Shown here piece by piece: positions 25,173-34,724 of a stretch of DNA of 64,000 bases; the stretch's first letter is position 1; each line of letters begins with the position of its first letter. The DNA comes from Rhizobiaceae bacterium. GTDB lineage: Bacteria; Pseudomonadota; Alphaproteobacteria; Rhizobiales; Rhizobiaceae. A model generated the notes under the pieces. That model saw only the letters and a program-made list of their open reading frames with translations. It had not been told where the DNA came from and did not search any database. The DNA lies in contig JABABQ010000072.1 in assembly GCA_014238155.1 (NCBI GenBank), positions 62,001 to 126,000 on the forward strand. Direction: 5' to 3'. Made by a program: the position numbers and the translations under genes.

Positions 25173-26059
25173 TGACCGTCGCCGCAGATATTTCGGCGCC
25201 GATCCGCCCCTCCTCGGATACCTTGTTGGCGACCCGACAGGGCAAGCCCAGAAATATGGGGCAGATCATTCGTTGGCTGCTATTGTTTGCCGGCGGGATC
25301 GTCATGATCATGCCCATAGCCTATATGATCTCGACATCGCTGAAGTGGCCGCATGAGGTTTACAACGTCAACCTGATCCCCGTCGAACCGACGCTTGAAA
25401 ACTATACCTATGTGCTGGAAGACGGGCGGTTCTATTGGTGGTTTGTCAACTCAATAATCATCGCGACCATAACCACGATCTGCAATTTGTTCTTCGACAG
25501 TCTCGTCGGTTACACTTTGTGCAAATTTCGTTTTCCGGGACGCCAGATCGTATTCATCGCGATTCTGTCGACGCTGATGATTCCTACGGAAATGCTTGTG
25601 ATCCCATGGTATTTGATGTCTCAGTCATTCGGCTGGCTGGATAGTTACTGGGGCATTATGTTCCCCGGTCTGATGACAGCTTTCGGCACGTTTTTGATGA
25701 AGCAGTTTTTTGAAAGTGTGCCCGATGAATTCCTTGAAGCGGCCCGGATTGATGGTCTAAACGAGCTGCAAATCTGGTGGACCGTGGCCATGCCATTGGT
25801 CAAGCCAGCATTGGCTGCGCTGGCAATCTTTGTTTTCCTGGGTAACTGGACAGCGTTCTTGTGGCCGCTGATTGTCACCAACTCTACCGATATGTACACG
25901 ATACCGGTGGGATTGTCGGGCTTTGGCGATGAAGCAGACGTCGCCTGGGAACTCATCATGACGGGCGCGGCCATCAGCACGATTCCAACACTGGTCGTCT
26001 TCCTCATTTTCCAACGCTTCATCATTCGTGGCGTCGTTATGGCTGGGTTGAAGGGATGA
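25172..26059 (+). CDS. CUT1 sugar ABC transporter permease 2 (MalG type)
   Basis: 295 residues with a soluble N-terminal tail of about 30 residues and six helices. The EAA loop FLEAARIDGLNELQIWWTVAMPLVKPALAAL (about residues 188-218) is clear. The start is in TAATG with the previous stop, and its own stop overlaps the lyase start by 4 bases (ATGA). This makes the lyase an integral part of the transport operon. Confidence 0.88.
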   Translation: MTVAADISAPIRPSSDTLLATRQGKPRNMGQIIRWLLLFAGGIVMIMPIAYMISTSLKWPHEVYNVNLIPVEPTLENYTYVLEDGRFYWWFVNSIIIATITTICNLFFDSLVGYTLCKFRFPGRQIVFIAILSTLMIPTEMLVIPWYLMSQSFGWLDSYWGIMFPGLMTAFGTFLMKQFFESVPDEFLEAARIDGLNELQIWWTVAMPLVKPALAALAIFVFLGNWTAFLWPLIVTNSTDMYTIPVGLSGFGDEADVAWELIMTGAAISTIPTLVVFLIFQRFIIRGVVMAGLKG

Positions 26060-27540
26060 TCGAAAAAACCACTTTCCCGGACCTGACGTATAAGGAAACG
26101 GTTCTTGCGCCACTGTTTGATGGCGTAAAAACCCACTATGTCGACTACTTCACGTCGATCAACAAGGCGCATTTGGTCATGTTGACGGAGACGGAAATAT
26201 TGACGCGGGAGCAGGCTTCCAGGATTGCCGAAGCGCTTCAGCAGATTGAGCAGGAAACCGACATCGCGTCCCTGCACTATACGGGCGAACACGAGGATTA
26301 TTTCTTTGTGGTCGAAGCCGCGCTGCGTGACAAACTTGGCGATTTGGGGGGCAGGCTCCACACTGGTCGATCACGTAATGATATGGATCACACGCTTTTT
26401 AAGCTCGCATTGCGCTGCCGTGCGGCTCGGATGTTGGTTCAGATGGAAACTCTGATCGCCTCGCTTCTCGACAAGGCGGAGGCCGAGGCGGCAACGCTCA
26501 TCGTCGCATACACCCATGGCCAACCTGCCCAGCCAACGACATTTGGCCACTACCTTGCTGCAATGATTGAAGTGTTGATCCGTGATATGACACGCCTCAA
26601 TGCCGCCGCCGAAAATCTGGAGCAATGCCCGATGGGTGCAGCTGCCATCACAACTTCTGGTTTTCCCCTTGACCGCCAACGTATGGCTGATCTGCTTGGA
26701 TTTGAGGGTCCGCTGCTTAATTCCTATGGTTGCATTGCTTCTGTCGATTATATCACGGGTCTGTATTCGGCGATAAAACTGGTGTTCGTGCATTTGGGCC
26801 GCGTGGTTCAGGATATGGGCGTTTGGTCGAGCTTTGAAGTTGGTCAGCTGTATGTTCCAAATTCCTTTGTGCAAATCAGTTCGATCATGCCGCAAAAGCG
26901 TAATCCTGTGCCTATTGAGCACATGCGTCATCTTGCGTCTGTCACGGTAGGCCGTTGCGACATGGTGGTGAACACGATGCACAATACGCCTTTTACCGAC
27001 ATGAATGACAGTGAAGGCGAAGTTCAACAGTCTGGTTATGCTGCCTTTGACTCAGGCGGCCGGATGCTGGAATTACTGGCGAGTTTTTTAACGGCGTGCT
27101 CGATCAATCAGAACAACGTGAAGCGCAATACCGATGCCGCATGTATCACAATCACTGAGCTGGCAGACACATTGGTCCGCAATGAAAACCTCTCATTTCG
27201 CCAGGCTCATGAGATAGCTGCTGCAACCGCGCATGCTGTGATCGATTCCGGTAAACCGCTTGGTTCGGGGTATTCAAATTGCCGAGCCGCGTTTCAATCA
27301 GAGACGGGTCGCACATTGGACATGACTGAAAACCAGTTCGCCAGAGCGACGTCTGCGCAAAACTTTGTTGCTGTGCGTAACCTGCCTGGAGGTCCTGCGC
27401 CGGAAGCACTGTCGGCTGCATTGAAAATCTATCGATCAAATCTGCGACAGCTGTCGGCCAGTTGTGCATCGCGAACAAGCCGCCAGTCAGACGCGGAAAC
27501 TGATCTGGATGCTGCTTTCAATTCATTGCTGGAGACCTAG
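26056..27540 (+). CDS. Argininosuccinate-lyase-like enzyme inside a sugar ABC operon
   Basis: 494 residues, fumarase/aspartase superfamily. The closest pattern is argininosuccinate lyase: HTGRSRNDMD (about 101-110), the His-containing AYTHGQPAQPTTFGHY (about 152-167), and the mobile catalytic loop SSIMPQKRNP (about 275-284, with the usual second Lys as Arg). It is embedded between the permease and ATPase genes with a 4-base overlap, not next to arginine genes. A housekeeping role is therefore unlikely. It probably eliminates fumarate or a related acid from an imported N-substituted aspartate or succinyl compound, as EDDS lyase-like members of this superfamily do. The exact substrate is unknown. 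Confidence 0.78.
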   Translation: MIEKTTFPDLTYKETVLAPLFDGVKTHYVDYFTSINKAHLVMLTETEILTREQASRIAEALQQIEQETDIASLHYTGEHEDYFFVVEAALRDKLGDLGGRLHTGRSRNDMDHTLFKLALRCRAARMLVQMETLIASLLDKAEAEAATLIVAYTHGQPAQPTTFGHYLAAMIEVLIRDMTRLNAAAENLEQCPMGAAAITTSGFPLDRQRMADLLGFEGPLLNSYGCIASVDYITGLYSAIKLVFVHLGRVVQDMGVWSSFEVGQLYVPNSFVQISSIMPQKRNPVPIEHMRHLASVTVGRCDMVVNTMHNTPFTDMNDSEGEVQQSGYAAFDSGGRMLELLASFLTACSINQNNVKRNTDAACITITELADTLVRNENLSFRQAHEIAAATAHAVIDSGKPLGSGYSNCRAAFQSETGRTLDMTENQFARATSAQNFVAVRNLPGGPAPEALSAALKIYRSNLRQLSASCASRTSRQSDAETDLDAAFNSLLET

Positions 27541-28600: not shown

Positions 28601-29499
28601 GAGATACTCCTCCATCAAACACGGTGCTTTGTGCTGGTCGCTTATATTGTGATCTGGTATTTACAGGCGTTCCAAAATTGCCAGTTATGGGGACCGAAAC
28701 ATTCGCCAATGATCTGTCCCTGCATGCGGGTGGTGGTGCGTTTATTACAGCAGCGGCATTCAGTGCCCTGGGTTGGCAAGCGTCACTGCTTGCGACGCTC
28801 CCTGCGGCTCCCTTTGATTCAATTGTTTGTGCACAAATCGAGAGTTCAGGTGTTGAGATTGATTTTTGCAAATCCGCGGAACGGGGTGCAGCGCCACAGC
28901 TTACCGTTGCCATAACCGGCAAAGATGATCGCGCATTTCTCAGCAACAAGACTGGCAAGGCGATGCCTGATTTTGACTTTTCTGCCGGCGCTATCAAGCA
29001 TCTTCATATTGGCGAACTTAGAAGTTTGGTGGAGCATCCCGACCTGATCGAAAAGGCTCGGCTGGCGGGAATGACAATTTCTTTGGACTGTGCGTGGGAT
29101 GCTGAGCTGTTGGCCCAAGGGTCTCAAATGAGCTCTCTTTTATCAAAGGTCGATGTCTTCCTGCCCAATGATTCAGAATATTCCCTTTTGACACAGTCAG
29201 GGCTTGCCGAAGACGCAACCCCACTCACGGTTGTCAAATGCGGAAGTGAAGGAGCGCGAGCTCTGCAACAGGGCAGATGGATTGTGGTACCCGCGATTCC
29301 GGCCACAGTCGTGGATTCAACCGGAGCGGGCGACGCTTTCAATGGCGGTTTTTTAACCAGCTGGCTTTCTGGAAAACCACTCCGCGATTGTCTGTTGGAT
29401 GGCAATCGGTGTGGCCATATTTCTGTTGGTCAAACCGGTGGTACCGGGGGGTTAGCCGAACTGCGCAGCGACATACAATATCACAGCAAGCTTGCCTGA
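28597..29499 (+). CDS. PfkB-family carbohydrate kinase
   Basis: 300 residues. The C-terminal PfkB signature DSTGAGDAFNGGF (about residues 242-254) contains the anion hole and catalytic Asp. The N-terminal GGGAFITAAAFSALGW is the sugar-binding glycine-rich motif of ribokinase-like enzymes. The GTG start at 28597 overlaps the ATPase stop. It should phosphorylate the sugar or sugar-like product released by the locus. It is the last gene of the operon. Confidence 0.84.
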   Translation: MRDTPPSNTVLCAGRLYCDLVFTGVPKLPVMGTETFANDLSLHAGGGAFITAAAFSALGWQASLLATLPAAPFDSIVCAQIESSGVEIDFCKSAERGAAPQLTVAITGKDDRAFLSNKTGKAMPDFDFSAGAIKHLHIGELRSLVEHPDLIEKARLAGMTISLDCAWDAELLAQGSQMSSLLSKVDVFLPNDSEYSLLTQSGLAEDATPLTVVKCGSEGARALQQGRWIVVPAIPATVVDSTGAGDAFNGGFLTSWLSGKPLRDCLLDGNRCGHISVGQTGGTGGLAELRSDIQYHSKLA

Positions 29500-29525
29500 T
29501 ATCGGCTGGCGGCCACCTGACATCC

Positions 29526-29573
29526 AGCGGCGAGCGACGAGCGGCGAGCGGCGTCGAACAGCGGCGAGCGGCG
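29526..29573. repeat. Short GC-rich repeat AGCGGCGAGCGGCG
   Basis: Three tandem-like copies: AGCGGCGAGCGACG at 29526-29539, AGCGGCGAGCGGCG at 29540-29553, and the identical 14-mer at 29560-29573. They lie in the 300-base gap 29500-29799 just after the kinase stop. The rest of that gap contains no recognisable gene and no clear T-tract terminator; AAGGAG precedes the next start at 29800. Confidence 0.7.
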
Positions 29574-29799
29574 CCCGGTCGGCCCTTTCAATTGTTCAAA
29601 ACGCCCGCCGAATTCATTGCTTTTGTAAAACAAATCCGCTGCCAGATACGCCCTTAATCTTCCACAAGCCCTTGCAAACCGGGTGTTTTGCCGGGGTGTG
29701 CCACAATTCACAGATTTGTGTTCAAGCCAAAGATAGGTTTCCTTCACCACGCATTGGGGAATCCACTTCAGCGTGACCTTTTAGGAAGGAGACCCAACA

Positions 29800-32328
29800 A
29801 TGAGTAAGAACAATTTGACGCTAATTTGTACCGCTGCTCTTGCCGCCGGCATGTTGGCAGGAAATGCTCGTGCACAGGAAGGCCCGGTCCTAGAGCCAGG
29901 CGACGCTGTCGTCACCGGCTTTTCCGGCACCGCTCAACCAACCACATCTACACCAACACTCCACATCGACCTTGACGGACCCTCTGCACAGATAATGTCA
30001 TTGGCCGCGATGTCCGGTGCACCCACAGGTGCAATGACCACCGTGACCGCCAAACGGCGCATCACAGCTAAGGAAGTTGGACAGGTTTTTGCCATCGCGC
30101 TTGATGATGCCGGCGATGGAGAAACCCCCAACATCTATCTCGGTGCGACTTCATTGTTCGGGCTGTATATTGTTGAAGGTCGAGGTGGCGAACGACTTGA
30201 ATTCGGTGAGCCCGGAGCGACATTTATGAATGGTCAATTTGGCCCTGGCGGTTCGGCTGGTTCAATTTGGCAAATCGATGGCGTAACCGGTGAGATTTCC
30301 GAATTTGCCCGGCTTCCCGGAAATTCGGGTGTCGGTGTCGGCGACGTCGTCTTCGATGCTGCCAGCCGACAGTTCTTTGCAACCGATCTCGACAACGGAA
30401 TGATTTATCGAATTTCTGAAGACGGAACCGTTGTCGATTCATTCGACCATGGTGTCACTGGCCGTACAAATGCCGGGTTGGACGCTGTCACTGATGATGA
30501 TTCGCTGCTCGATATCACGAACCCATCTTTCGATGCCTCTGCCACCGATACCTGGGGTTACACCCAGTCGCAACGACGTGTGTGGGGCCTGACGACCAAC
30601 AACGGCCGTGTGTATTACGCCACTCAAAACGAACCGCAGGTCTGGTCCGTTGGCATCGCTGACGATGGCAGTTTCGCTGAAGATCCGAAGTTGGAGTTCG
30701 ATGTCAAGGATCTGCCCAGTAATGGTCCGATCACCGATATGCTGTTTGATAAATCCGGGCGGATATATCTCGCCCAACGAGGTCCACAGACGGCAAGCTT
30801 CAATTTTTCCGAGTTTATAGAACCTGGAAAAGCTAGTGTGATGCGCTATATCCCGTCGACCTCGGATGAGGGATCATGGGAACCGGATCCTGACTATTAT
30901 GCGATCGGCATGCCAGCTGAACACGAAGCCGCCAATGGTGGTGCAGCTCTGGGTTATGACTACGATGAAAATGGTGCTGCCCATACCAATAAATGTGGTG
31001 GCATGTTGTGGTCGACCGGTGGTCGTTTGGTCGCCAGTGATGGTTCCGACGAAACACCTGCCGACGTTCATGGCCTCCAGGGCAATTCGGTAGGACTCGT
31101 TCGACCGGAGAATGTCCCGCCACTGGCTTCATATTTTGTCGATGATGATGGACTGACCGGTGATTCGCATAAAGCCGGCCACATGGGCGATGTTGAAATC
31201 TTCCAGCCTTGCCTGGAGACAGCCGAAAACCAATATCCTCCTGGCTATTTCCCGCCATATGATGAGCCACCAACCGATTGGCCGCCGGAATTTCCTCCAC
31301 CGACTGATCCCTTCCACACCAATTTGCGTCTGACTAAAACGGCCTCACCAAAAGATTGCTTGCCGATGTATGGCGGTTGGTCATGCCAGTTTAAAATTGT
31401 TGTGCGGAACACCGGACCCGATCGCTATTGGGGTGATATCCTGGTGAGAGATGTAGTGCCAGCAGCACCTGCGGGCGTCTACTTTGGTGTTGGACCCGTG
31501 CCACCTTGGTCCTGCTGGAAGGCAGGTCCGGCGGAATTGCGGTGCTGGCGTCCAAACGTCATCCTCAATGTCGGTCAATACGTGGAATTGAAAGTCAATG
31601 TCTGGCTGCCAAATTCTTACAACCGGTGCCGCCTGCGCAACATCGCAGAAATCGAATGGGCTCCCGGTGGAACCCAATGGAACACCGATCCCGATGACGA
31701 CTTTGATGGTGCGTCTGCTACTCTGCCGTTACGCCATTGCGTGCCTGCACACCGGCCAATAGGGTCCAATGTTCACCGGCCTGTAGGCTCGGATGTTCAC
31801 CGTCCACAGGGCTCGGTCGTCCATCGTCCAAGAGGTTCGGTCGTCCATCGTCCACGCGGCTCGGTTGTCCATCGTCCAAGAGGTTCGGTCGTCCATCGTC
31901 CACGCGGTTCGGTTGTCCACCGTCCACGCGGCTCGGTTGTCCATCGTCCACGCGGTTCGGTCGTCCATCGTCCACAGGGCTCGGTTGTGCACCGTCCGAA
32001 GGGCTCGGTTGTCCACCGTCCAAGAGGTTCGATCGTCCATCGTCCACGCGGCTCGGTTGTGCACCGTCCGAAGGGCTCGGTTGTCCATCGTCCTCGGGGT
32101 TCGGTTGTCCACCGTCCAAAAGGTTCGAAGGTCCACCGTCCAAGGGGATCCAAGGTTCACCTCCCAAGGGGATCCAGGGTTCACCGTCCAAAGGGATCCA
32201 AGGTTCATCTTCCAAGGGGATCCAGGGTTCACCGTCCAAAGGGATCCAAGGTTCATCTCCCAAGGGGATCCAGGATATTGATCCCACGGTCGCAAAATCT
32301 GCAACTGAATAGAGCGCCAACAAACTAA
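29800..32328 (+). CDS. Secreted protein with propeller-like domain, DUF11-like domain and 22 HRPxGSxV repeats
   Basis: 842 residues. Signal peptide 1-25 (cleavage after ARA-Q). Residues about 80-480 contain repeated short motifs such as VFAIALDD, SIWQIDGVTG, MIYRISEDGTV and RVWGLTTNNGRVYYAT that suggest a beta-propeller. A Pro-rich linker (PPGYFPPYDEPPTDWPPEFPPP) leads to a DUF11-like beta-sandwich at about 507-645 (TNLRLTKTASPKDC, CQFKIVVRNTGPD) with several Cys. Residues 651-826 are 22 octapeptides HRPxGSxV, very basic, ending in a short tail. The function is unknown; export and architecture suggest a cell-surface or matrix protein. AAGGAG precedes the ATG. A second secreted protein is encoded downstream. 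Confidence 0.75.
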   Translation: MSKNNLTLICTAALAAGMLAGNARAQEGPVLEPGDAVVTGFSGTAQPTTSTPTLHIDLDGPSAQIMSLAAMSGAPTGAMTTVTAKRRITAKEVGQVFAIALDDAGDGETPNIYLGATSLFGLYIVEGRGGERLEFGEPGATFMNGQFGPGGSAGSIWQIDGVTGEISEFARLPGNSGVGVGDVVFDAASRQFFATDLDNGMIYRISEDGTVVDSFDHGVTGRTNAGLDAVTDDDSLLDITNPSFDASATDTWGYTQSQRRVWGLTTNNGRVYYATQNEPQVWSVGIADDGSFAEDPKLEFDVKDLPSNGPITDMLFDKSGRIYLAQRGPQTASFNFSEFIEPGKASVMRYIPSTSDEGSWEPDPDYYAIGMPAEHEAANGGAALGYDYDENGAAHTNKCGGMLWSTGGRLVASDGSDETPADVHGLQGNSVGLVRPENVPPLASYFVDDDGLTGDSHKAGHMGDVEIFQPCLETAENQYPPGYFPPYDEPPTDWPPEFPPPTDPFHTNLRLTKTASPKDCLPMYGGWSCQFKIVVRNTGPDRYWGDILVRDVVPAAPAGVYFGVGPVPPWSCWKAGPAELRCWRPNVILNVGQYVELKVNVWLPNSYNRCRLRNIAEIEWAPGGTQWNTDPDDDFDGASATLPLRHCVPAHRPIGSNVHRPVGSDVHRPQGSVVHRPRGSVVHRPRGSVVHRPRGSVVHRPRGSVVHRPRGSVVHRPRGSVVHRPQGSVVHRPKGSVVHRPRGSIVHRPRGSVVHRPKGSVVHRPRGSVVHRPKGSKVHRPRGSKVHLPRGSRVHRPKGSKVHLPRGSRVHRPKGSKVHLPRGSRILIPRSQNLQLNRAPTN
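31750..32277 (+). repeat. 22 x 24-bp in-frame tandem repeat (HRPxGSxV)
   Basis: Uninterrupted 24-bp units, each beginning CAC/CAT-CG and encoding HRPxGSxV. The x residue is I, V and Q in units 1-3, mostly R in units 4-9, then Q, K or R. Units 18-22 alternate HLPRGSRV and HRPKGSKV, giving a 48-bp higher-order repeat with GGATCC in each unit. Arg is encoded by either CGC or AGA in otherwise near-identical units. The array leaves other frames open, which explains the long overlapping reading frames there. Confidence 0.95.
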
Positions 32329-32362
32329 CTTCTGACTGCGCACTATGCGGACTGAACAAGAC

Positions 32363-32388
32363 GGCCCATCGGCACCTGCCGGTGGGCC
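32363..32388 (+). terminator. Strong hairpin between the repeat protein and next gene
   Basis: GGCCCATCGGCA (32363-32374) pairs with TGCCGGTGGGCC (32377-32388) with one G-T wobble, 35 bases after the stop of the repeat protein. No T-tract follows, so it may be a partial terminator or an mRNA 3'-end stabiliser, with the downstream secreted protein read through at a lower level. Confidence 0.5.
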
Positions 32389-32468
32389 AACTAACTGTAA
32401 ACCTCCACTCTTCTCAATATGTGCAAATACTGGCAACATTCAAAGATGAAGCGCCCAGGGACCCCGAC

Positions 32469-33545
32469 ATGACAAGATCAATGATTGAAAATCCAATTTT
32501 TCACCGGGGAGCACGTTTGTATTTCGCTGGCGCCTGCCATTGGTTTTTAGCAGTGGCAGCGGCATTGCTGCTTTGGCCAACTGCAACGATGTCTGCCCGG
32601 GCGGAAAGCCCCGAGATCAAGACCAATCAGTCCTGGATCGAAAATATGCAAACGGGTGGAGAACTGAAAATCAACAGCGTTGAAGATGCATTTGAATTTG
32701 TATTTTCGCGGCTACCCGATCAGGTTTCTGTTTATCCAACCGAAAATTATTACTATTTCACCTTCCCCGCAGACGGAGTGATCTATGCTGGCAATCTGCG
32801 TCTTGCAGCTCAGGACCGTGAGCAGGGCGTGATTCATTTTGCCGCTTTCAAACAAGCAAATCAGTCCAGCGAAGCTGGCGAGATGCTGTACAAGCCTTTG
32901 ACAATTAAAGACGGTGTCGAAGTCAACAAACTTGACCCATTTTCCTACCAGGTGGTTTACAAGGAAAAGTCAGTCACTTTCAATCTCAACGATGTTTCTG
33001 CCATCCAGCCACCCAAAGAGATAATTGCCGAAGGAGAGCGCTATCTCGGCCTGGTTGCTGATGAGTCGGGCGTGCGGTTTTTCCTGTTCTATAATCAAAT
33101 ACACAAGGTTTTCGCCTATGTTTTGGACGAAACGAACGGTGTTCTTGACCAGTTTGTTCAAACAGCAGAGGACAGTCGTGTCCTTGTTGGACAACGAACC
33201 GGATTTGCATTTTACAATCACCACTATCTCGACCGGCGGGTTTTGATAGGTGTGCATGGCGCCAACACGGTGGTGAATAATTACTATGACGGCCCGGCGG
33301 ACCAACTGCCGGAAAACCACATTATTGATGACAATTTGCGCAAGTCTATCGTCGATTCAGACCCGGATGTGAAAGACCGGCTCGACAAGTTCGGATATTT
33401 CAAGAGTGGTGAAGGCCGGTATCTGATTTCGCCTTATGTTCAATATCTGTATCTGGAGGAACTTGATGGATATCATCAGTGTGCTGGCAATCCAGAGCTT
33501 GCGGCAGAAATTTACGACGCCTGTTTCGTTGCGGGTGATGAATAA
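32469..33545 (+). CDS. Secreted protein of unknown function
   Basis: 358 residues when started at ATG 32469, which has AGGGA about 8 bases upstream. A hydrophobic segment (about residues 22-42, FLAVAAALLLWPTATMSARA) looks like a signal peptide after a long basic N-region, so the mature protein begins near ES. The rest is mixed alpha/beta, rich in Tyr and Asp, with FEFVFSRLPDQVSVYPTENYYYFTFPADG near the mature N terminus and a short Cys-containing end. I do not recognise a family. Its position behind the octapeptide-repeat protein suggests they work together. Confidence 0.65.
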   Translation: MTRSMIENPIFHRGARLYFAGACHWFLAVAAALLLWPTATMSARAESPEIKTNQSWIENMQTGGELKINSVEDAFEFVFSRLPDQVSVYPTENYYYFTFPADGVIYAGNLRLAAQDREQGVIHFAAFKQANQSSEAGEMLYKPLTIKDGVEVNKLDPFSYQVVYKEKSVTFNLNDVSAIQPPKEIIAEGERYLGLVADESGVRFFLFYNQIHKVFAYVLDETNGVLDQFVQTAEDSRVLVGQRTGFAFYNHHYLDRRVLIGVHGANTVVNNYYDGPADQLPENHIIDDNLRKSIVDSDPDVKDRLDKFGYFKSGEGRYLISPYVQYLYLEELDGYHQCAGNPELAAEIYDACFVAGDE

Positions 33546-33652
33546 CCCGGTTTGGCGGTGCCGTTTCCACCCAGGCTCGTCGAAATCCTGGTAGATTTTT
33601 AATTACCCGCCAATATGTGATAGCCTGTGGTGATTATAGTGGGAGGAAGAAA

Positions 33653-33913
33653 ATGCCAAAAGTAATTTCTACGCACGAAGTCGATGACGTTGCCCATTGG
33701 CTCGCATCGCCCAAACGGGCAGAGGTGTTTAGTGGGGTGGCGGAAAACATTCGAACATTTGTTCATTCAACTGAGCCCAATCAGGTCGGTTTGACGATGG
33801 ATATAGCAGACATGGACGCTTTCCAGGCAGTGTTGGAAAGCGATGCTGGTGCTGCAGCGATGAAGTATGATGGTGTTCGACCGGAAACCGTCGTGGTGCT
33901 GATCGAAGGCTAG
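33653..33913 (+). CDS. Small hypothetical protein
   Basis: 86 residues. GGGAGGAAG directly upstream of ATG 33653 is a strong ribosome binding site. It is soluble and acidic, with FVHSTEPNQVGLTMDIADMDAFQAVLES in the middle, resembling the ferredoxin-like alpha+beta proteins of about 90 residues found in many proteobacteria. I cannot name a family. It is separated from its neighbours by 107 and 55 bases, so it is probably transcribed alone. It converges on the next minus-strand operon. Confidence 0.6.
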   Translation: MPKVISTHEVDDVAHWLASPKRAEVFSGVAENIRTFVHSTEPNQVGLTMDIADMDAFQAVLESDAGAAAMKYDGVRPETVVVLIEG

Positions 33914-33968
33914 AGTTTGAACCGCGCTGGGTGACCAGAATGAATGTGGAACACATTTTGCCGACGGA

Positions 33969-34724
33969 TCAGATAACGCGCTCCGTCGCCACGCCTCTGA
34001 CGTCCATCTCATAATCCAGAACGTCGAGGGGCGGACGACAGAATTGCCAGGTAACCCCGGCCTTCGCGGCGCCACGTGTCACCAGTTCCTCTTCGAGAAA
34101 CGGGTGAATATCATAAACGCTGTAGACATGGGTTGCCGATGTATCGTCCCAACCAAAATCAAGCGCTTTCATGCGGCGCTCCATTTCCGTGAGCACGAAT
34201 TGCGCTTTCTCCTGCATGGCATCAGCAGTTTGTTCTCCGCAGCGTACGGTTTCCTCTTCATACCTCGTGTTGCCTTCAGGCGATTCTGCGCTGCCGGCAA
34301 TTACAAAACTGCCCCGTGAATCCTCTGCCGCTGCAGGCACGGTGTAGGAAAATGCGTAAAATACCGGCTCGCTCGGCGCGTTGACTTTTGGACAGACATT
34401 GCTGCGGGCGATCGGGTTGTCGTCATTTTGTACGATGCCCCAATCCTCGAGCGGGCGAATGTACTGGCGGTTAAAATCGCGAAATCCGTCATCGTCAAAC
34501 GGTGCTGGTGATCTCAATTCGCAGGCGCAAAAAGCGTCAATCGGACGGCCAATTGCCTGCAGATGGGATTTGATTGCATCGAAACCTTCAGCGAGAGGTA
34601 AGGGTTTTTCAAACCGGACCCTTTCGATTTCATAGCCCGGCAATGCTGCGACACCGGCGGAATACTGAAACAACCCTTTAATGTAGCGATAGCCACCTTT
34701 TTCATTCGTCTTAGTCTGTGACAT
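33969..34724 (-). CDS. CnbZ-like (2-amino-5-chloromuconate deaminase-type) RidA-fold protein
   Basis: 251 residues. The pattern YIKGLFQYSAGVAALPGYEIERVRF at the N terminus, FCACELRSPAPF near residue 65 and ARSNVCPK near 107 is that of proteins annotated as 2-amino-5-chloromuconate deaminase CnbZ. These resemble a double RidA/YjgF fold that hydrolyses enamines or imines. It is the third gene of a minus-strand operon after an amidohydrolase and an aldehyde dehydrogenase (39-base gap). A general enamine deaminase role in amino-compound breakdown fits better than chloromuconate turnover here, as no aromatic-ring genes are nearby. Confidence 0.7.
   Translation of the reverse strand: MSQTKTNEKGGYRYIKGLFQYSAGVAALPGYEIERVRFEKPLPLAEGFDAIKSHLQAIGRPIDAFCACELRSPAPFDDDGFRDFNRQYIRPLEDWGIVQNDDNPIARSNVCPKVNAPSEPVFYAFSYTVPAAAEDSRGSFVIAGSAESPEGNTRYEEETVRCGEQTADAMQEKAQFVLTEMERRMKALDFGWDDTSATHVYSVYDIHPFLEEELVTRGAAKAGVTWQFCRPPLDVLDYEMDVRGVATERVI

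Follow-up and report, generated by a model that had tools for sequence, protein, structure and literature searches.

A His-x4-Ser repeat tail and its neighbouring gene suggest a two-part cell-surface system in Rhizobiaceae and related bacteria of the order

Tandem octapeptides with one His each are present in the prion protein, where Cu(II) is bound by His and backbone amides. Among bacterial proteins, HxsA (TIGR03979) is named for repeats that pair His with Ser, and HxsB and HxsC are its putative maturation radical SAM enzymes, as given in PMC9062424. In the lanthipeptide noursin, according to PMC10206099, a His ring nitrogen is enzymatically joined to a Thr-derived residue, and this His-to-butyrine crosslink leads to copper binding.

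The locus described here lies in a stretch of 64,000 nucleotides (contig JABABQ010000072.1) from a Rhizobiaceae bacterium, referred to below as the window. It contains an array gene, whose product ends in a tail of repeats, followed by a second gene that we call the partner gene. All features are given in window coordinates.

29800-32328, plus strand: array gene ORF, 842 aa
29800-29874, plus strand: signal peptide (MSKNNLTLICTAALAAGMLAGNARA), judged by eye from the translation
29875-31269, plus strand: propeller-like domain, residues about 26-490 (family distribution, weak profile matches)
31318-31719, plus strand: DUF11-like domain, residues about 507-640 (sub-cut-off Pfam match, AF2 beta strands)
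31750-32277, plus strand: 22 octapeptides HRPxGSxV / HLPRGSR[VI], each one H-x4-S unit (unit count, TRF)
32278-32328, plus strand: C-terminal end LIPRSQNLQLNRAPTN and stop codon
32363-32388, plus strand: 11-bp stem-loop between the array gene and the partner gene, GC-rich, no U-tract
32382-33545, plus strand: partner gene, with a mechanical GTG start (ATG at 32469 is more likely) and the mature part from about 32604 (by eye)

Immediately upstream of the array gene there is a short low-complexity run of AGCGGCG-like heptamers (29526-29573), and an argininosuccinate lyase-like gene (by eye) is located at 26056-27540 inside an apparent sugar ABC transporter operon. No Rfam match was found within 29000-34500.

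The array consists of 22 exact 8-residue units, uninterrupted, or 176 residues. A sequence-only reading of the same DNA had proposed an exported protein with precisely this array, in agreement with the unit count and with the signal-like N-terminus seen by eye. It had described all units as HRPxGS, which is true for 19 of the 22, the other three being HLPRGS, and had noted Arg codons switching between CGC and AGA; both are used in unit position 4, and so are CGG and AGG. The 48-bp double unit, correctly recognized as closing the array, is present in 3.0 copies (TRF, 32130-32274), and the strongly basic character of the array is reproduced by the net charge, +45 for the tail versus -46 for the remaining mature protein. 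Selection at the protein level, also suggested there, is a fair claim for H, P, G and S, which are invariant in 22/22 units and show silent codon changes only, while it does not extend to the unit as a whole, where neighbouring copies differ by 51 changes in synonymous and 51 in nonsynonymous codon pairs. The coding frame is the most uniform one, with the mean top-residue frequency of 0.87 versus 0.51-0.76 in the other frames. On the minus strand, ORFs of 213-236 aa are open across the array (31718-32439); these frames are open because the period is 24 bp, and the ORFs look like by-products of this period rather than genes.

When the own genome was searched with the whole array protein, this locus alone was found. 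The proposed recent expansion of the array fits the unit numbers in relatives from the window clade, namely 3, 12, at least 14, and 31 or 32 (many of the sampled genomes are drafts and arrays break contigs, which makes unit counts and some absences uncertain). In the relative with three units (L025:4154-4445) AT-rich sequence follows until the contig end, possibly due to misassembly at the repeat. Broken copies in relatives had been named as possible evidence against an array maintained as protein. A partly broken copy is found in genome G003 (L086:8019-10286, same as L026), where the scaffold part of a 92%-identical version is interrupted by two in-frame stops, one near the start and one in the middle of the propeller, but the frames of its 12-unit array and of the partner are open; the stops reflect either a decaying gene or MAG errors.

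The essential unit is H-x4-[S/T], and the HRPxGSxV octapeptide, previously taken for the unit itself, is one of its flavours: the kept feature is His with Ser or Thr at +5, while the intervening residues and the spacer are free. To describe it, 26 tails were selected from 99 tails of at least 100 residues by the content of His (at least 12) and Cys (at most 4), spacing being no criterion; L024 and L087 among them are the same protein. In each of the 26 tails Ser or Thr occupies position +5 in 76 to 100% of cases, and in the 22 tails outside the window clade this holds for 820 of 889 His residues (746 Ser and 74 Thr). The +5 spacing is not a copying effect, since it is retained in distinct sequences: 479 of the 524 distinct His hexamers of the 26 tails (window included) have S/T at +5, with 466 different x4 strings, and in 753 distinct 13-mers the proportion is 93% at +5 versus 3-27% at each of the remaining offsets (1 to 12).

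Of the 820 units outside the window clade, 69% have R, K or P at position +2. The unit-to-unit distance varies, being 6, 7, 8, 11 and many other values, up to more than 20. Other flavours include hexapeptide runs HNKKRS-HLRTGS (L241), heptads HRPIGSV (L092) and mixed spacings, and four of the 26 tails (L182, L090, L171, L102) have no basic charge, the net values being -8 to +3. A search with the octapeptide as the query yielded matches in 15 of 297 genomes, five of them in ORFs of the scaffold family (G000, G038, G126, G273, G185). The other ten matches (E 8e-9 to 8e-4) were rejected as such arrays, with S/T at +5 in at most 0.57 of His in the two ORFs richest in units at each place, within the stretches inspected. 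The tail also matches plasmid sequences (Cupriavidus CopB and others), at 29-46% over low-complexity sequence. In the literature, a full-text search for the unit and related peptide strings, e.g. HRPRGS and HWRWGS, gave no occurrence, and the titles and abstract openings covered, with most subscription papers outside, do not mention the motif or the partner gene.

Relatives of residues 1-647, i.e. of the scaffold that carries the tail, were found in 13 of 41 near genomes (own included) and in 90 of 297 sampled genomes of the order, and 100 stretches were fetched, chiefly from genomes with such relatives. The tree of 99 rows, which omits the near-duplicates, fragments or broken copies L024, L026, L027, L086, L104, L163, L166 and L176, comprises 49 Cys-type, 25 His-type and 24 tailless proteins, and one whose type is undetermined. 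Cys tails (L094-L099, L106-L164) are built of repeats like CPPGxxGxPPNC or CKxIGKxGKxPxC and represent a second kind of repeat carried by this scaffold. Tailless propeller genes are followed by a homologous large gene, probably DUF11-type, in 17 loci (L131:2470-7050 and 16 others).

The propeller and DUF11-like domains assigned in the sequence-only reading are tentative. DUF11 (PF01345) scores 12.5 bits in the window protein, below the Pfam cut-off of 24.6, and is above it in two of the scanned relatives (29.4 bits in L089, 31.9 bits in L096), with a match at E 1 in 8 of 24 family members; AF2 models the region as a set of beta strands (pLDDT by block 54-76), which by our reading appears sandwich-like in the model. 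The propeller region, a possible six-bladed beta-propeller, is assigned by weak matches: 15 PDB sequences with E values of 0.07 to 1.1, mainly named as diisopropyl-fluorophosphatase (DFPase) or its engineered relatives (5uwz is clearly a different protein), and DUF6923, Reg_prop and SSL_N at E 0.03 to 0.2. In the AF2 model of both domains from a six-row alignment (pLDDT 39) the propeller part is unusable. PG_binding_1 is above the cut-off in the relatives L089 and L167. The earlier statement that no named family has this repeat holds in Pfam, where the best match of the array is Fibrinogen_BP (PF08017) with 30.1 bits in the window and 32.6 in L088, below the gathering score of 50 and a low-complexity resemblance, and in NCBIfam, where the window array protein has no match at E 1.

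Two points absent from that reading are the H-x4-Ser rule and the partner gene. In the scaffold-family loci the partner profile finds 23 ORFs, two of which are the same gene (L026 and L086), and all of them sit with a His-x4-Ser array, in L091 across a contig break from it. The partner core, located by its conserved PTE motif, begins 228-563 bases downstream of the array gene, in the same orientation, in 20 of the 21 testable His-tail loci and in none of the 64 loci with Cys-type or tailless scaffold genes (Fisher 1.5e-18), where testable loci have at least 600 bases downstream and 14 shorter ones were dropped. Other counting rules yield 15/21 and 12/21 His-tail loci, with 0/64 controls each time; these numbers are lower because the stop-to-stop frame or the profile envelope of the partner overlaps the array frame. 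In the exceptional locus, L177 (G061), the array gene comes just behind another array gene with its partner (L222), the partner lying upstream. Genome G010 has an array and no partner in its assembly, the contig ending inside the array. Among the loci without a partner, a script that requires five units found five true arrays, namely L177 and four at contig ends. It also flagged a single ORF, different from the family protein, in each of the Cys-tail loci L107, L119 and L159; 70 loci had no arrays.

The partner product is probably exported, as indicated by an export-signal-like stretch seen by eye. It has no credible match in Pfam, NCBIfam, PHROGs or PDB (the best PDB E is 1.1, and the best Pfam/NCBIfam score, E 0.02, belongs to a single member out of 23), lanthipeptide and radical SAM models do not match it at E 1, and no match was found in plasmids and phages. 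The alignment of partner proteins has 42 invariant columns, which include two C-terminal Cys and no His. Partners are mostly acidic, with the median net charge of -17 over 53 proteins (range -36 to +10; -23 in the window), and the AF2 model from a two-row alignment is unusable (pLDDT 37). The stem-loop between the two genes is a possible partial terminator or processing site; L086 and L088 have 12-bp stems at about this position. Such a hairpin was rejected as a marker of the gene pair, since hairpins at p 0.05 are found in 8/23 His, 17/43 Cys and 1/24 tailless loci.

Searching from the partner side, we found profile matches in 44 of 397 sampled genomes of the order and in 2 of 15 genomes of the genus; in the class sample there were 2 of 289, one being the own genome, and in the phylum sample 1 of 398, the own genome. 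All new matches were fetched as 30 stretches, 29 of them distinct (L246, equal to locus L179 of G084, was left out). An ORF with at least five units was identified by the script in 17 of the 29 loci, four of the ORFs being cut at contig ends (L218, L239, L244, L245), and three more loci have 2 to 6 units by eye (L221, L226, L237). No clear array was seen at the other nine: L217, L219, L225, L231, L234, L235, L236, L238 (contig edge) and L242. Several of these arrays occur on scaffolds unrelated to the propeller: ORFs of about 100-190 aa with HWRWGS, HNRARS, HSRRRS, HYRRRS or HNKWKS units, most of them with a signal-like N-terminus (by eye), and ORFs of 219-234 aa with HIGKPS units. In 18 short array ORFs 81% of 136 His have S/T at +5, with 1-17% at other offsets; as these ORFs were picked with the motif known, the value is a description and not an independent test.

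The histories of the scaffold, the tail and the partner were compared using trees. In the propeller trees the window clade (window, L087, L088, L025) stands beside the Cys-tailed L094 and L095 (100/99 in the careful tree), separated from the His-tail group by a long branch. When the window clade was forced to the His side, this placement was rejected with the careful 50-row tree (AU p 0.004) but not with the quick 99-row tree (AU p 0.37). We chose the 50 rows ourselves (4 from the window clade, 19 with His tails, 18 with Cys tails, 4 further Cys-tailed ones from within the His side, and 5 tailless), with the near-copies L181 and L170 and the long-branch L182 omitted. A single scaffold clade of all His tails was rejected as well, though four Cys rows are split off in it too. 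In the tree of partners, the gene from the window groups with L089, L091, L232, L240 and L242 (100/98), and HxPxGS units are also found in the arrays of L089, L091, L232 and L240, none being seen at L242. The loci L092, L244 and L245 have HRPxGS arrays with partners from a distant branch, so that unit flavour and partner branch show no one-to-one match. A partner is missing from three Cys-tailed proteins that fall inside the His group. Since the scaffold and the partner of the window clade group differently, and Cys-tailed members of the His group have no partner, the partner is seen in these trees to go with the tail and not with the scaffold. The supported branches contain only three independent changes of tail, however, and this number does not give significance (median p 0.25). 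Composition of x4 correlates weakly with the partner distance (Mantel r 0.30, p 0.001 for 42 loci; r 0.23, p 0.017 for the 23 non-redundant ones).

We propose, with a probability of roughly 0.62, that the array is a multivalent H-x4-[S/T] tail on an exported scaffold, and that the next gene encodes a dedicated partner, which would recognize the units individually in the cell envelope. What we observe is the motif with its fixed spacing, the pairing of the genes and the change of tail type with partner presence; from these we infer physical recognition, its location and any chemistry. The units, often H-x-[R/K/P]-x-x-S, would build a tail for multivalent recognition, carried by an exported scaffold, which would be the propeller with DUF11 here, a protein with a peptidoglycan-binding domain in some relatives, and proteins of about 100-230 aa elsewhere. 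The array protein and the partner would meet in the envelope, as the export signals (by eye) and PG_binding_1 in L089 and L167 suggest, and the partner would recognize each unit, perhaps modifying the tail unit by unit. For its predicted role, acting on the His/Ser pair, by modifying or tying it, is slightly more likely than only binding it. The exchange of Ser and Thr, the fixed distance and the free spacers are better accounted for by a short linear motif, serving either for modification or as a ligand, than by a regular fold or a plain polycation. A regular fold would mean self-standing units, e.g. a repeat solenoid with His-Ser hydrogen bonds, and a partner serving as a chaperone or secretion helper; it would agree with the fixed spacing inside the unit and with the exported appearance of both proteins (by eye), but a regular solenoid would not be expected to tolerate unit-to-unit distances from 6 to more than 20, and we consider it the least probable of the explanations weighed here.

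The plain polycation corresponds to the binding of acidic polymers suggested in the sequence-only reading: a basic Pro/Gly-rich array, grown by slippage, would stick to acidic polysaccharide or DNA, with the neighbouring gene incidental. The tail charge of +45, the unit numbers differing among relatives and the 48-bp higher-order unit speak for it, but it gives no account of the exact His-Ser distance, constant over 466 different x4 strings, of a dedicated partner (20/21 versus 0/64), or of the four tails with net charge -8 to +3, which makes it quite improbable. Charge alone is not the rule for the tail-partner match, because these four tails are not basic, though partners are mostly acidic and tails mostly basic. 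Metal binding by one His per unit, as in the prion octarepeats, with the partner as a metallochaperone or loading factor and Cys as the ligand in the Cys-tailed relatives, is unlikely too. The tail residue does switch between His and Cys (25 and 49 of the 99 rows, respectively), and the window array has one His per 8 residues; still, ligation by His needs no Ser/Thr exactly at +5, no His is among the 42 invariant columns of the partner, whose two invariant Cys are C-terminal, and no metal genes were recognized by eye among the conserved neighbours. Returning to the tail recognized by a dedicated partner, a more specific version of it, tentative and in our estimate rather doubtful, is that the partner represents a putative new class of envelope enzymes covalently modifying every unit, e.g. 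joining His to a Ser/Thr-derived residue or decorating the hydroxyl. Tails of 3 to about 60 units would then become small constrained loops on interchangeable scaffolds, and the tail and the enzyme gene would move between scaffolds as one module.

A fixed His-Ser distance across hundreds of peptides that otherwise differ, in several kinds of exported protein and together with one unnamed gene, is a pattern of the sort expected for a substrate or ligand with a dedicated enzyme or receptor. Neither half matches a named family in the libraries searched, and the genomic data suggest that His-x4-Ser tails and the partner form a two-part cell-surface system not described before; if this is right, a surface or cell-wall system is added to the order. 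Its shortest natural versions, a protein of about 100 aa and one partner, would be simple to test.

Among the known systems, the prion octarepeats differ from the window array in sequence and are not known to have a dedicated partner gene or Ser at +5. Noursin is a small lanthipeptide made by a LanKC synthetase (PMC10206099), while here a long tail is found on an exported protein, and the partner has no credible Pfam or NCBIfam match. HxsA shows some similarity, but by profile scores and spacing the array protein falls outside this family: TIGR03979 gives at most 36.4 bits in the relatives versus the cut-off of 121.65, over the last third of the profile (the peptidoglycan-binding domain), and five sub-threshold places elsewhere in the own genome, none over the cut-off, while HxsB (TIGR03978) reaches 22 bits there versus 370. 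The spacing is His-x-Ser in HxsA and His-x4-Ser here, S/T at +2 of His having the frequency of 0.00 in the window tail. What HxsA and some of the relatives have in common is the peptidoglycan-binding domain, the source of their TIGR03979 score, and HxsA is likewise named for repeats pairing His with Ser and accompanied by dedicated neighbour genes.
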